Assembly: GCA_012522185.1 (NCBI GenBank)
Contig: JAAYKY010000055.1
Location: 1-42,013 of the forward strand
From: Flavobacteriaceae bacterium
GTDB taxonomy: Bacteria; Bacteroidota; Bacteroidia; Flavobacteriales; Weeksellaceae
Direction: 5' to 3'
DNA: 42,013 nucleotides
The position numbers were made by a program, and so were the translations under genes. Positions 14,412-19,877 of the stretch are shown here, one piece after another (position 1 is the stretch's first letter; every line of letters starts with the position of its first letter). Below the pieces are notes generated by a model that did not search any database, had not been told where the DNA came from, and saw nothing but the letters and a program-made list of their open reading frames with translations.

Positions 14412-14963
14412 ATGAAAGAATTCAAACCCGTTCTGATTTTTTTACTCAAATTCGCCGTGACGGGAATCGTTTTGGTCGTTCTTTATAATTTGTACCTGCA
14501 CCAATACCATCAATACAATCTTCCTGATCCTTATAGTCAGTTTGTGGCGGACTGCACGGTTTATTCAATGAATTCGCTGGGTTTCGACGCCATTCAGGTG
14601 GTTGATAAAACGCGACCTTGGATTTGGATTGGAATGAATAACGAATGGCTTTCTTACATCAACGAAGGTTGTAATGCGGTTTCTGTAATGATTATTTTTG
14701 TTGCTTTTATCTTTGCATTTTCTACCACTTGGAAACAAACCTTGCTTTATATTTTGGGCGGATTGATTATCATCAAAATAATGAACATCGCCCGAATTGT
14801 ATTATTGAATTATATTTTTGCTTACCACAAAGAATACGGCAAAATCGCACACGATTATCTTTTCCCGGCGATTATCTACGGAACCATTGTCGTTTTATGG
14901 ATTATTTGGGTGAAATATTTTGCATTGAAACTTAGAAACAAGTCCGATGAACAAGTGGATTAG
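14412..14963 (+). CDS. xrtF: Exosortase family protein XrtF
   Basis: This 183-residue inner-membrane protein is a flavobacterial exosortase, a predicted cysteine transpeptidase that processes C-terminal sorting signals of exported proteins. Hydrophobic segments lie at about 7-27, 88-104, 110-136 and 151-170. The catalytic triad seems complete: C87 in SYINEGCNAVSVM, R128 in MNIARIVLLNY and H147 in GKIAHDYLFP. It is short compared with classical EpsH-type exosortases, as expected for XrtF. It overlaps the next gene, its dedicated partner, by 17 bases. No protein in this window has an obvious matching sorting tail, and to my knowledge the target signal of XrtF is not established. Confidence 0.9.
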   Translation: MKEFKPVLIFLLKFAVTGIVLVVLYNLYLHQYHQYNLPDPYSQFVADCTVYSMNSLGFDAIQVVDKTRPWIWIGMNNEWLSYINEGCNAVSVMIIFVAFIFAFSTTWKQTLLYILGGLIIIKIMNIARIVLLNYIFAYHKEYGKIAHDYLFPAIIYGTIVVLWIIWVKYFALKLRNKSDEQVD

Positions 14964-15396
14964 ATATATTTTTACAGCGGTTTTAATTTTCGGATTAATT
15001 CTCGTCAGAAAATACGAAGACATTCTTTTTTACGATCCGTTTTTAGCTTTTTTCAAAGGGGATTTTCTGAATAAAGAATTTCCCGAATACGATTTAGCCC
15101 GAATAAGCATTCATATTATTTTCAGGTATTTATTGAATTCCATTTTAACTTTGGGGATCATCGGACTCCTTTTTTGGAGCTGGAAATATGTGAAATTTAC
15201 GGCTTTGGTTTTATTGGGATTTCTGCTAATCCTGCTTCCGCTTTATTTATTTATGATTGAATCTGAATTTTCAATCGGAGAAAATTTAGGGTTCTACATC
15301 CGAAGGTTTTTAATCCAACCGATGGTGTTATTGATTTTGATTCCTGCTTTTTATTACCAGAAATTTCTGAAAAATCAGAATTCGAAAGAAAATTAA
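14947..15396 (+). CDS. Exosortase F system-associated membrane protein
   Basis: The 149-residue protein has about four hydrophobic segments (5-21, 58-80, 85-106, 120-140). The extracytoplasmic loop has the run RKYEDILFYDPFLAFFKGDF, resembling the family found next to xrtF in flavobacteria. Its start lies 17 bases inside xrtF, so translation is probably coupled. Its role is unknown; co-occurrence with xrtF suggests it helps or delimits the sorting reaction. The C-terminus is a basic, polar tail. A terminator lies six bases past the stop. Confidence 0.85.
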   Translation: MNKWIRYIFTAVLIFGLILVRKYEDILFYDPFLAFFKGDFLNKEFPEYDLARISIHIIFRYLLNSILTLGIIGLLFWSWKYVKFTALVLLGFLLILLPLYLFMIESEFSIGENLGFYIRRFLIQPMVLLILIPAFYYQKFLKNQNSKEN

Positions 15397-15772: not shown

Positions 15773-18433
15773 TTAAAAATCAATATCCACTCCGATGTAG
15801 AAACTCGCCGGCATCACGGGTGCATAGACCATTCCGCCGTCGAAATAATTTCCAAAGGGATTTTGCGCATCAATGATGGCGTGCTCTTGGGTAAATCCGG
15901 TCAGGTTTTCTGCTCCCAGATAAACACGTAAGTTTTTATTGAAATTTCTGGAAATCTGCGCATTTAAACGGAAATAGGAATCTCCGTATTCCGGCATTTG
16001 AAAAGCTACCGGATTGGACGAAGTATCGGGCAAACGCTGTTCACCCACCCATTGCAAAGTTGTATCGAAACCCCATTGGGCTCCATTAATTTTCTTCATT
16101 GTAAAATAACTTAAATTAAGGAAACCACGGTGTTTCGGGGTGAAAGGCAATTCTTTAGAGCCCGACAAATAATCGGTTTTTGTGTCGTAATATTTATAAG
16201 CCAATCTCGCTTCCAATCTGCGAACGGGTTGAAAGTCCCATTGCACCTGAAAGCTATTGGCATAAGATTTTCCGTCCAGATTATAAAACAAAATACTTTG
16301 TGGCGAATTATCCAAATCCATCACAACTTGGTTCTCGAAATCGGTACGGAATAAATCGGCTACCAAGGTACTCGTTCTACCAAAAATTCGGAATTCCTGT
16401 TGCAAACTGATTCCATAATTCCATGCAATCTCCGCATCCAAACCGTAGATATCGCCGCCGTTTTCAAGGATTTCGATTTGGCGGTTGGAAGCCAAATAAG
16501 CCTGAGACTCCGCAAAAATATTGGCTGTTCGGAATCCTTTTCCGGCCGATGCACGAAGAATGGTTTTCGGCGTGATATCGTATTTCAGATTCAATCTCGG
16601 TGTAAATTGGGTTCCGGCCAAATTATGCAAATCGACTCTCGCGCCCGCAACCACAGTGAGTTTATCTCCCGAATAAGTGTATTCGAAAAACGCTCCCGGA
16701 ACGGTTTCGTCGCGTTTGAAATTCGTCAGATTATAGATTTCATCGTAATGATCATACAAGAAACTCAATCCTGTTTTGTATTTGTGCGCGGTATTGCTGA
16801 AAATACTTTCGAAAATTAAATTCGAATAAAAAGTCCGTTGTTCGGCATCATAATTCCGCAATCCAAAATAAGATTTCTGTTCATTGTAATTGAATTGATT
16901 CATCCAACCGATGCTCTGATAAGGCTTTGCCGGAAAAATATAGCCGGTTTTGTTCCATACTTGAAATCGCTGAATGTCCACTCCGATTCCATAGGCATTT
17001 TCGGTTCCTTTGTCGGAATCTTCACGAAAATCCATTTGACCGCCCAAACGATGATCATTCACATAATTCACTCCGAAATGCGTCATTAAACCGGATTTTG
17101 TCAAATCTTCATAATTCAGCAAATATCCAACATTGATATTTCGGCCGATGGGTTGATCCATAAATCCATCATCATTGTGATCTTTCCGATCCAAAGTCGC
17201 ATTTCCGTGCAGTAAAATGGATTGCGTCCATTTGTCATTCACCGCATCATTGTGCACAAAATTTGCTTCCAATCGGGTTTCGGTATCACCAAAAAAGTTG
17301 ATGGAAGTTTTGGCTTTGTCGTGGGATTTATAAAGTTCGGTATTGATATGTCCGGCAATGGCTTCGTATCCGTTCGTAACCGAACCTCCGCCTTTGACCA
17401 ATTGAATTCCCTGAATCCATCTACCCGGAATGAAATTCATTACATAAGCGGAAGTAATTCGTCGTACTTCGGGCAAAAATTCTTTGGTCATCAAAATATA
17501 TTTCTGATCCAGCCCAAGCATTTTCAATTGTTTGGTTCCTGAAACGGCATTCGAATAAGATACATCGACCGTGGCATTGGTTTCAAAACTTTCTGACAAA
17601 TTACAGCAAGCTGCTTTCAACAATTCTCTGTCACTGATGTTTTCCATCAATCCGGCCGCTTTTTTATCAAAAGCATGTGCCGGTTTGTTGCCGGTAATCG
17701 TCACGGCGGTGAGCCCCACTAAATCATCTTCCTCTTCCAATCCATGGTCGTGTCCATCGTGTAAATCATGATGCGAAACACCATTTTCCTGCAAATGAGT
17801 TCCGGGACTATTTTCGATATTTTCCCAATCTATTTCACGGTCATAAAGACAACAAGCGGGAAGGTTTTCATAAATGGTATTTTCGGAAGTGAAAAGTTCG
17901 TTGTCGTGCCCAACTTCCGCAATTTTTCGCATAATCGCTTCTTTGGAAGTTTGATTTGGATCATAAATCAAAGTCAGAACCTTGGTTAAAACGTCCCAAG
18001 TTCCATTTGCGGAAGGAAAAGTTTTCACGGCATTTTCAATCCGGTTTTTACAGGAAATACAATTTCCACGCACCTTGATCGTTTCGGTAATCTGAATTGA
18101 ATTAGAAGGCTCCATTCGGTCGTAAAGACAACAGCCGTGAAGATTTTCATAAACCGAATCTTCGGCACGATGAAGCGCATTGTCGTGTCCAACTTTGGCA
18201 ATGTTCTTGGCAATTTCGTCCAGATTGGTTTTGGATTCATCAAATTGAACGGTCAAGATTTGAGAGCTCATATCCCAGTTTCCGTTGGCTGATGGGATTT
18301 CTTTGACGGCGTTTTCGATGCGGTCTTTGCACATTCCGCAGTTTCCACTTACTTTTAAATTAGCTGTTTTTTCCTGTGACCAAAGCATTGTCCCCAGGGT
18401 CATCAGGAATATAAATAGGATGTTTTTATACAT
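15773..18433 (-). CDS. TonB-dependent receptor with two tandem HMA domains, probable copper uptake
   Basis: The 886-residue protein has a signal peptide (1-19). Two heavy-metal-associated domains follow, with GNCGMCKDRIENAVK (C32, C35) and GNCISCKNRIENAVK (C125, C128), each trailed by VGHDN and a CCLYDR motif (101-106, 194-199). The repeat length is exactly 93 residues. A His-rich stretch, HHDLHDGHDHG (221-231), comes next, then a plug (about 238-370, with ACC at 275-277 and GGSVTNGYEAIAGHINTEL) and a barrel ending in FYIGVDIDF. HMA domains carry Cu(I) or similar metals; here they would sit in the periplasm. The Cys/His-rich exported protein is encoded 79 bases upstream. Copper as substrate is inferred from these motifs. 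Confidence 0.85.
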   Translation of the reverse strand: MYKNILFIFLMTLGTMLWSQEKTANLKVSGNCGMCKDRIENAVKEIPSANGNWDMSSQILTVQFDESKTNLDEIAKNIAKVGHDNALHRAEDSVYENLHGCCLYDRMEPSNSIQITETIKVRGNCISCKNRIENAVKTFPSANGTWDVLTKVLTLIYDPNQTSKEAIMRKIAEVGHDNELFTSENTIYENLPACCLYDREIDWENIENSPGTHLQENGVSHHDLHDGHDHGLEEEDDLVGLTAVTITGNKPAHAFDKKAAGLMENISDRELLKAACCNLSESFETNATVDVSYSNAVSGTKQLKMLGLDQKYILMTKEFLPEVRRITSAYVMNFIPGRWIQGIQLVKGGGSVTNGYEAIAGHINTELYKSHDKAKTSINFFGDTETRLEANFVHNDAVNDKWTQSILLHGNATLDRKDHNDDGFMDQPIGRNINVGYLLNYEDLTKSGLMTHFGVNYVNDHRLGGQMDFREDSDKGTENAYGIGVDIQRFQVWNKTGYIFPAKPYQSIGWMNQFNYNEQKSYFGLRNYDAEQRTFYSNLIFESIFSNTAHKYKTGLSFLYDHYDEIYNLTNFKRDETVPGAFFEYTYSGDKLTVVAGARVDLHNLAGTQFTPRLNLKYDITPKTILRASAGKGFRTANIFAESQAYLASNRQIEILENGGDIYGLDAEIAWNYGISLQQEFRIFGRTSTLVADLFRTDFENQVVMDLDNSPQSILFYNLDGKSYANSFQVQWDFQPVRRLEARLAYKYYDTKTDYLSGSKELPFTPKHRGFLNLSYFTMKKINGAQWGFDTTLQWVGEQRLPDTSSNPVAFQMPEYGDSYFRLNAQISRNFNKNLRVYLGAENLTGFTQEHAIIDAQNPFGNYFDGGMVYAPVMPASFYIGVDIDF

Positions 18434-18471
18434 TTCATTTGATTAAAATTTATATTAAATTTTCGAAATCG

Positions 18472-18489
18472 TCCCGATAGCTGTTGGGA
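18472..18489. repeat. CCCGATAG-type extragenic hairpin
   Basis: TCCCGATAGCTGTTGGGA forms a short imperfect hairpin between the Cys/His-rich gene and the receptor gene. It looks like a degenerate form of the CCCGATAGCTATCGGG palindrome that I recall as frequent between Bacteroidota genes. It could weaken read-through into the receptor gene. Confidence 0.4.
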
Positions 18490-18512
18490 TCGAAGTTCGA
18501 GATTCACTAAAA

Positions 18513-18896
18513 TCAAGAAATGTATTTGGGTGGATTCCAGAAGGAGTAGCTTAGATCTTTGATCGCCAAAGATGAATAATTATCGGATTTTAATTTTTCG
18601 AAGGAATTGATTCCAATTTCCTTTTCAGATGAATTAATTGGAATATAAACATGAAATGAAATGACCTGATGCAAATGGCAATCATGGGTTGGGCAACCCT
18701 TATCGTCGCAATTATTTTCGGTCATCGGCTCACCGGAATGGCAGCAATCATGGGATTCTTCCGAATCATCCATGGCGCAACAACTCATTTCAGACGCATG
18801 TTCTTCCACAGTCAAAACCGAGGCAAAAGAAAGCACCGGCGACAGAAAAACGAGCATCGCCAATAAAAGGGTTAGTATCTGAAATGGTTTTTTCAC
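18513..18896 (-). CDS. Exported Cys/His-rich protein, probable metal binder
   Basis: The 127-residue protein has a signal peptide (about 1-26) and then a dense metal-ligand region: CC at 39-40, CCH at 51-53, C63, C68, H71, C73, H74, H76, plus several Met residues. The C-terminal half is polar and ends in SYSFWNPPKYIS. I do not know a defined function. The ligand pattern and its position directly upstream of the HMA-receptor gene suggest copper binding in the periplasm or envelope. The start is GTG at 18896, needed for the Lys-Lys part of the signal peptide. An exact -7 box ends only five bases before it. Confidence 0.75.
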   Translation of the reverse strand: MKKPFQILTLLLAMLVFLSPVLSFASVLTVEEHASEMSCCAMDDSEESHDCCHSGEPMTENNCDDKGCPTHDCHLHQVISFHVYIPINSSEKEIGINSFEKLKSDNYSSLAIKDLSYSFWNPPKYIS

Positions 18897-18901
18897 TGAT
18901 G

Positions 18902-18909
18902 CAAAATTA
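18902..18909 (-). promoter_or_regulatory. -7 promoter box for the Cys/His-rich gene
   Basis: Minus-strand TAATTTTG matches TAnnTTTG exactly and ends five bases before the GTG start, so the transcript may be leaderless. A TTG lies 13 bases upstream, closer than the usual spacing. Confidence 0.5.
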
Positions 18910-18929: not shown

Positions 18930-19877
18930 TTATTTCCAGAATTCCCACCATTTTTTTGGTGAATGATCTCTTTTGTTTGGATGGGGTTGGTCTGGAGTTT
19001 GGACTTTTTGTTTAGGCAAATGGTCGTTTAATACTTCTAAATAAAATTCTGTATCCTTGGGATCTATACTAAATAACCAATCTAATTGCTTTTGAGTGAA
19101 ATATTTATCAAGAAGAGGTTTCGCTTCCGGGTTTGGTAATAAAATTTCTTTGATTAAATAATCATAATTCGATTGAAATACAGACTCTTCCGGCATTTTC
19201 CCTTCCGCATCGCCTCCTACTATGTAATGATACATTTCAATCTCATTTTCAACTGCATGTGCCTGAAATATCTCAAACAGCTTGATTTGATGTTCAAAAT
19301 TTAATTTAGCTATTAAACGGCTATCCATAAACCTTAATAAATATCGGCTTCTGATGACATAATCAAAGTCTTTTAACAACTCCTCAGCTCCTACATATTT
19401 AAACCGATAAAAATCTTTTCCCTCAAAATCCTCCAATGTCAAACCGGTTGTTTCTTTAATTTGAGCTTTTATCAATTCTGTATAGTCCTGAAACTCCAAC
19501 TCGAGCGGAAGTTTTTCCCCAATCGAATGATCTTCCAAGTAAAGATTATCTTCAACTAAAAATCTTCTTTGCTCTAATTCAGATTCTTTGCTCCATTTAA
19601 AGCTAAAGTACATTGTGGATTCTTGTATAAGAAACGAGAAAACCTCATATTTCACTGATGTTCTGCCCCAAAATCCCGTTTCAAGGTCAGTTAAAATTAG
19701 CGTCGCATTTTCCAAAAAGCATACGTCAAAAATGCGGGATTTTTTATGTTTTTCGAACGCCGTTTCCCAATTGATTTTTTTTTGAAATTTCCAATAAAAT
19801 TCTAAATCCCGACCTAAATCAAATCCATCTTTATCAAAAGAATGATTTACACAAATTCCCGCTAAACTTGTCCCCAT
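18930..19877 (-). CDS. Hypothetical protein, 315 residues
   Basis: No family is recognised. There is no signal peptide or membrane segment, so it is probably cytoplasmic. The N-terminal half (1-150) is rich in beta-type and aromatic residues, with DVCFLENATLILTDLETGFWG. The middle (150-260) looks helical, with MDSRLIAKLNFEHQIKLFEIFQAHA. The tail is Pro/Lys-rich and ends in KKWWEFWK, an aromatic end seen in unrelated bacterial proteins and possibly a membrane-surface contact. The gene starts seven bases after rlmB stops, so the two are probably co-transcribed. The reading frame is intact. Confidence 0.7.
   Translation of the reverse strand: MGTSLAGICVNHSFDKDGFDLGRDLEFYWKFQKKINWETAFEKHKKSRIFDVCFLENATLILTDLETGFWGRTSVKYEVFSFLIQESTMYFSFKWSKESELEQRRFLVEDNLYLEDHSIGEKLPLELEFQDYTELIKAQIKETTGLTLEDFEGKDFYRFKYVGAEELLKDFDYVIRSRYLLRFMDSRLIAKLNFEHQIKLFEIFQAHAVENEIEMYHYIVGGDAEGKMPEESVFQSNYDYLIKEILLPNPEAKPLLDKYFTQKQLDWLFSIDPKDTEFYLEVLNDHLPKQKVQTPDQPHPNKRDHSPKKWWEFWK

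Follow-up and report, generated by a model that had tools for sequence, protein, structure and literature searches.

A TonB-dependent receptor with tandem fused HMA modules and a cysteine-rich leader in Flavobacteriaceae: a candidate copper importer

The passage of copper across the outer membrane and its delivery to periplasmic enzymes is a poorly known area, and the available text of PMC12914433 still describes copper acquisition pathways as poorly characterised. In this study, a stretch of 42,013 nucleotides from a Flavobacteriaceae bacterium (assembly GCA_012522185.1, contig JAAYKY010000055.1), hereafter the window, raised the question of what a TonB receptor would carry with two HMA modules fused in line, and whether such doubling marks this lineage, as the initial annotation had thought possible. 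We give about an even chance to the reading that the receptor imports a thiol-binding metal, most likely copper(I), in a TonB-dependent manner and has fused periplasmic HMA metallochaperones and a copper-sensing leader; this reading brings known parts into a new combination.

Receptor anatomy and paired cysteines

The initial annotation had described two HMA modules, each with CxxC, VGHDN and CCLYDR, in line with a TonB receptor, and this arrangement was confirmed in an ORF of 886 amino acids with an ATG start (15773..18433; this and all receptor and leader features below lie on the minus strand), delimited by the frame itself, Pfam and a module profile. A signal peptide covers about residues 1-19 (18377..18433), as read by eye from the sequence, with an AlphaFold2 helix at residues 2-16. 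Module 1 (residues 27-106, 18116..18355) holds C32xxC35, VGHDN and CC101-102 in a β-α-β-β-α fold with pLDDT mostly 82-92, and module 2 (residues 119-199, 17837..18079), recognised by sequence, profile and AlphaFold2, repeats them as C125xxC128, VGHDN and CC194-195. These are followed by a His-containing linker of mostly low pLDDT (residues 200-240, 17714..17836), by the sequence LTAVTITG (residues 241-248, 17690..17713), which we take to resemble a TonB box, and by the plug and beta-barrel (residues 249-886, 15776..17689; Pfam, AlphaFold2 and Foldseek), in which the vicinal pair C276-C277 lies within ACCNLSE (17603..17608).

Pfam HMA (PF00403) matched the receptor in two stretches (2.6e-10, 41 bits against a cut-off of 24.8) and the TonB beta-barrel (PF00593) also exceeded its cut-off (2.5e-31); Plug (PF07715) remained under its cut-off at E 0.077 in the window receptor and matched 18 of the 29 aligned receptors at E 0.01. 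When aligned locally, the two HMA units are identical at 46 of 86 amino-acid positions and, at the nucleotide level, at 152 of 258; the alignment scores 263, whereas 1000 shuffles never exceeded 62. The exact 93-residue period noted initially stands for the window protein, where it runs from cysteine to cysteine, and does not hold in general, the profile start-to-start distance being 92-126 among 29 two-module receptors. Similarly, the His-rich stretch noted initially was found in the window receptor (seven His between residues 200 and 274) and is not a rule, since only 13 of the 29 receptors with two modules and 24 of the 43 with one have four His or more.

An AlphaFold2 model built from 29 sequences reached a mean pLDDT of 78.7 and a pTM of 0.64, with well-folded HMA units and low confidence in the linker (215-251) and the start of the plug (275-308). 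With Foldseek this model matched many TonB receptors, including OprC at 2e-22, and the barrel names no substrate because siderophore, cobalamin and copper receptors are found alike. The receptor is TonB-dependent by class, from which transport itself and its inward direction are both presumed.

All ten cysteines of the window receptor (32, 35, 101, 102, 125, 128, 194, 195, 276 and 277) fall into five pairs, namely two CxxC, two CC and the plug CC. The plug motif ACC[NDSE][LIV][AS][EG] was observed in 138/138 receptors, and the fused modules keep CxxC in 103/104 and CC in 104/104, the exception being L095, which begins inside its module as read. Past residue 25, the 29 two-module receptors contain exactly ten cysteines each, 290 in all, every one in five pairs, and the single three-module receptor contains fourteen, all paired. 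No cysteine follows the plug pair in any of the 73 fused receptors; by contrast, 12 of the 43 receptors with one module and 25 of the 65 without any have at least one cysteine outside the pairs. A series of thiol sites would be expected to show such a placement, and transfer along it is conceivable.

The cargo could instead be a chelate, siderophore or chalkophore, the HMA modules guarding the open pore or sensing metal without carrying it. The barrel is indeed as close to ferric catecholate and cobalamin receptors as to OprC, and efflux adaptors also bear tandem HMA modules; however, cysteines beyond residue 25 are confined to modules and plug in the two- and three-module receptors, and the adjacency of a partner gene goes with the ACC plug type, so we consider this alternative rather unlikely. 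As for the metal importer, the hand-over from the pore to periplasmic thiols suggested initially fits the five cysteine pairs and the stand-alone partner gene described below, its order being presumed from the sequence.

Number and origin of the fused modules

A protein search of 149 genomes, including the window's own, gave matches in 124 with an E-value no worse than 1e-30, and 55 more loci came from one named-genome scan, whose patterns bias the sample toward HMA-like peptides. After removal of duplicates and fragments, 138 receptors were left, of which 116 form the genome sample (116 of the 124 matching genomes; five were dropped as unfit rows, and G020, G021 and G131 are not included). 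Left out of the counts were L174, L179 and L182 as short, L001-L005, L035 and L036 as window copies, a paralogue or other genes, and L171 as cut by a contig end, its two modules being used in the trees. L119, the receptor of G087, is interrupted by one in-frame TGA and read as two separate frames, and was also left out. The receptor paralogue of the window's own genome (L005) carries CNVC in its plug and lacks the OprC motif.

The HMA copies per homologue, a count proposed initially, came to none in 65, one in 43, two in 29 and three in 1 of the 138 receptors, and in the genome sample to none in 49, one in 37, two in 29 and three in 1. These counts rest on the purpose-built profile, which in a set of 29 finds 13 fused receptors where Pfam HMA (E 0.01) finds 8. 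The 43 single-module receptors bear out the initial remark that one-HMA relatives exist. A doubling specific to the lineage was not upheld, as two modules occur in 29 of the 138 receptors, which spread across 12 genus codes within the same family, and three in one; in the window's genus two modules were found in 3 of 6 genomes, one of them a contig-end fragment. The closest named relatives are Moheibacter sediminis, with two modules, and Moheibacter lacus, with one, which makes Moheibacter the probable source of the window.

Where the receptor has no module, a partner gene often stands beside it. A stand-alone secreted HMA gene lies on the same strand within 1 kb of 46/65 module-less receptors (30/49 in the genome sample), the remaining 19/65 having no HMA gene within that distance. 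The stand-alone HMA proteins beside any receptor display CxxC in 63/64 and CC in the later part in 62/64, the C-terminal CC being absent in L057 and L058. CarbopepD_reg_2 matches 14 of the 29 receptors of the aligned set and, by eye, occupies in many module-less receptors the place taken by HMA in the fused ones. Epilithonimonas and Soonwooa combine one fused module with a single stand-alone gene that lies about 13-18 bp upstream. In a quick tree of the receptors, those of the window's family that carry fused modules cluster together (support 99), with the module-less L129-L133 as sister, and L147, from another family, is a separate fusion that retained CarbopepD_reg_2. From these neighbour genes, the receptor tree and the separate L147 fusion, the partner-gene fusion appears to have been made at least two times. 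The fused array looks like the product of a fusion with an operon partner gene, followed by repeat gain and loss.

An origin of the first modules from the stand-alone Epilithonimonas gene was unsupported, as those genes group apart in the module tree (support 95). Separately, in four Bacteroidetes MAG loci (L048, L051, L054 and L088) a CopZ-like ORF of about 70 amino acids separates the stand-alone HMA gene from the receptor; the ORF cluster comprises six loci.

Module number appears to change readily. The copy-number label switches at least 13 times on a tree of 121 receptors and differs even among near-identical receptors. L031, with two modules, and L109, with one, hardly differ except by one in-frame period of about 300 bp, joined at the VGHDN codons, as recombination between repeats predicts. 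In L100, modules two and three are identical at 238/243 nt and thus stem from a recent duplication. A single ancestral tandem duplication was rejected, since a clade of all first modules from 16 two-module proteins gave a p-AU of 0.00046, leaving independent duplication or gene conversion as remaining explanations of the two-module arrays. A separate clade for the modules of the window's genus has a p-AU of 0.356, yet is not the best tree, and the quick module tree itself has few columns and many open forks. Because of the label changes, the L031/L109 pair, L100 and the rejected first-module clade, we conclude that the doubling arose or was rewritten repeatedly.

Such turnover raises the alternative that extra HMA copies are a neutral repeat expansion without function, which the changes on the receptor tree, the one period lost between near-identical receptors and the recent L100 duplication would all suit. 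Nearly every copy, however, keeps CxxC and CC, and the two modules within one protein are merely 45-76% identical, so that old copies seem to be maintained; we therefore regard a neutral expansion as very unlikely.

The cysteine-rich leader

Upstream of the receptor, after a gap of 79 bp and on the same strand, we detected by profile and sequence a cysteine-rich leader ORF of 127 amino acids (18513..18896) that ends in SFWNPPKYIS and has a CutF/CruR-like anatomy. By pattern match, a -7 box of Bacteroidota type, TAATTTTG (18902..18909), stands 5 nt before the leader GTG, judged against what we take to be the consensus; a two-box promoter was not found at the window leader. A -7-type box falls within the 165 nt surrounding the start of the leader in 60/71 cases against 14/71 after one shuffle each, and a full two-box promoter in 22/71 against 1 shuffled. 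The 315-aa ORF at 18930-19877 (minus strand), between an rlmB-like gene and the leader, exceeds no family cut-off and has no match among the ORFs of the receptor loci examined. On the other side of the receptor and convergent to it, 14412-15396 (plus strand) encodes the exosortase XrtF together with the membrane protein associated with it (TIGR04128, TIGR04127); among the 138 receptor loci, the XrtF and partner ORF clusters recur in 8 and 9, e.g. L136 and L137.

With the leader profile, a leader was found upstream on the same strand in 72/73 fused loci (66/67 in the genome sample), L147 being the one without. In 75 leaders the PP precedes the stop by 3 residues in 64, 4 in 8, 2 in 2 and 5 in 1. 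CxxC is present in 58 of the 71 leaders measured, with the last CxxC 43-45 residues from PP in 47/58 and 41-48 in 56/58, over a spacer whose median identity among leaders is 20%. The window leader is one of the 13/71 without CxxC: C68-x4-C73 (CPTHDC) replaces it, and the last cysteine lies 48 residues from PP. Apart from the contig-cut fragment L008, each receptor leader contains 5-12 cysteines. No match to the window leader was obtained with DUF2946 (up to E 1), HYC_CC_PP (NF047658) or DUF6660 (PF20365), the last of which exceeds its cut-off in 3/9 related leaders.

Module-less receptors mostly have another upstream gene: HYC_CC_PP lies ahead of 50/65 by a purpose-built profile, all 3 of the 3 tested exceeding the NCBIfam cut-off. 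The PP of these proteins is 12-24 residues from the end in 47/50 and absent in 3.

A possible hairpin starts 12 nt past the stop of the window leader (18463..18500) and is weak (z -1.35 and -1.46). Across the leaders, z falls below -1 after 53/69 stops; since controls also score (HYC_CC_PP stops 34/50, fused-receptor stops 36/68, module-less-receptor stops 20/64, leader coding end 31/68, stand-alone HMA stops 7/21), the hairpin may partly be ordinary termination. A consensus over 18 leader downstream regions predicted no pairs. In a gap-free subset of 8 regions, 87.5% of the cells were paired, compared with 81.2% after shuffling, and 6 cells had a double change, compared with 1.9; this is suggestive only, because the subset was picked by eye.

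The leader profile matched in 71/119 genomes searched, many with more than one match. We examined 20 chosen stretches around such matches and scanned ten of the downstream genes. The terminal pattern is present in an ORF in 19/20 stretches (20 ORFs in total), L230 having IP for PP. Such leaders head an HMBD P-type ATPase (L222), RND pumps and a CusB-type adaptor (L221, L224 and L233), another TonB receptor (L236), and, in L218, a multicopper oxidase preceded by a DUF3347 protein whose N-terminus looks HMA-like by eye. Behind the second leader of the window's own genome (G000 C43, L217:1222-1590) come a Cys-rich ORF of 88 aa that Pfam does not match and the gene of an acetolactate decarboxylase, which is not obviously a copper gene. 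In L219:786-1172 and L233:6856-7239 the heads are His/Asp-rich, the Cys cluster is missing and the IWQPPKI end is kept, and the L233 leader before its RND pump suggests another metal. Because relatives also head efflux operons, regulation by the leader could have either sign.

It might be argued that the upstream gene encodes an ordinary secreted metal-binding protein in which WxPPK is a protein-level motif and not an arrest signal, as its Cys-rich secreted look and the failed DUF2946 assignment would allow. On the contrary, PP keeps a narrow distance from both the stop and the last CxxC despite a spacer of 20% identity, and relatives head several metal operons, which makes this alternative rather improbable. 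The leader family has the anatomy of the CutF/CruR kind (PP near the stop, a Cys motif upstream, a metal operon behind); the leader is taken to belong to the metal system of the receptor, and it is the strongest pointer to copper.

Proposed function and comparison with known systems

A copper importer is probable because a receptor with fused HMA modules sits behind a leader like known copper-sensing leaders. Copper as the metal is deduced from the kind of leader, the genes next to the leader's relatives, the relatedness of the modules to those of CusB-type adaptors and the best HMA matches. In structure, the modules best match copper ATPase domains, with zinc ATPase domains also matching; models of copper chaperones reach 39 bits, far short of the curated cut-off of 91, and there are matches to mercury models as well. 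HMA folds carry other metals as well.

The architecture might hence serve zinc or another soft metal sensed by the HMA thiols and the leader. This is consistent with the zinc ATPase domains and mercury proteins among the HMA matches, with the two leader relatives that have His/Asp-rich heads instead of a Cys cluster, one before an RND pump, and with the CutF-like leaders with His-only heads that precede HupE/UreJ genes according to the available text of PMC9973294; but the 5-12 cysteines of the receptor leaders (L008 aside) and the copper ATPase domains as best structural matches argue for copper, and we judge the zinc alternative quite improbable.

For the preferred copper importer, the following course is conceivable. 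TonB would open the plug and metal would be released to the conserved C276-C277, from which it could pass to the CxxC and CC sites in the receptor's own HMA modules and then to periplasmic acceptors. In other Bacteroidota the equivalent chaperone comes as a secreted protein of its own, its gene beside the receptor. The nascent chain of the leader may bind copper while its C-terminal WxPPK slows the ribosome, thereby setting receptor expression, and by analogy with CruR copper would turn the importer off. More tentatively, and with rather less confidence than for import as such, we propose an in-line thiol relay without free periplasmic copper, from the plug CC to one to three tethered HMA modules, in which gain and loss of repeats would tune the number of chaperones and the copper-reading nascent leader would set synthesis. 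Metal identity, import direction, relay order, stalling and copper control are all inferred.

The fusion series brings together, in a single proposed pathway, a class of Bacteroidota receptors (ACCNLSE plug) that is apparently uncharacterised, a secreted HMA protein and leaders rich in Cys. Versions with one, two and three modules occur naturally, and single-protein constructs would allow hand-over to be measured. Among the open-access papers listed, none described an HMA-TonB receptor fusion by title or abstract start, which is weak evidence of novelty, and no paper naming HYC_CC_PP or DUF6660 was found. The available parts of the R. anatipestifer OMP71 and ZntR papers do not name an HMA receptor.

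The leader is best regarded as a new member of an already known kind, since the available text of PMC9973294 already counts many CutF-like proteins in Bacteroidota, with TonB-like proteins among their commonest neighbours. They share with the family described here a signal peptide, a Cys motif, a C-terminal PP and often TonB-like genes downstream; the WxPPK family and a receptor of the window's type are not named among them in that text. The same source reports that CutF works ahead of a multicopper oxidase, in the opposite sense to CruR. CruR switches off a TonB receptor operon in the presence of copper, and has a CXXC followed by RAPP 3 residues from the end, with 45 residues between the motifs and 47 to the first Pro (available text of PMC9426467), against 43-45 in most CxxC leaders of this study. 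As described in the available parts of PMC12914433 and PMC9426467, CrtA/BfrG and CruR likewise form an operon of a leader and a TonB receptor, with a Cys sensor and PP near the stop. In contrast to CruR, the window leader is not recognised as DUF2946, and in contrast to CrtA, the window receptor has fused HMA modules; the CrtA/BfrG family of Bordetella pertussis has no conserved Cys or Met (available text of PMC12914433).

OprC of Pseudomonas aeruginosa (6fok, 6z8s) has the TonB receptor fold in common with the window receptor, for which copper import is the proposed role. The metal motif of OprC (CxxxM, HxM), from which an OprC-like receptor was proposed in Bizionia (available text of PMC11213822), is absent from the window protein, which has the CC plug motif and the HMA modules instead. 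The stand-alone secreted HMA proteins resemble the fused modules in their CxxC and later CC, but have their own gene, and upstream of their receptors lies mostly HYC_CC_PP. Some CusB-like adaptor genes are trailed by extra stand-alone HMA copies. By the purpose-built profile, CusB-like adaptors with 1-3 HMA-CC modules were found at 9 loci (L060-L066, L068 and L086), the L061 adaptor consisting by Pfam of HlyD_D23, HMBD and three HMA. Such RND adaptors (Carboxylicivirga) thus carry the same HMA module as the window receptor, in up to three copies, but at the C-terminus and in the service of efflux instead of the import proposed here.
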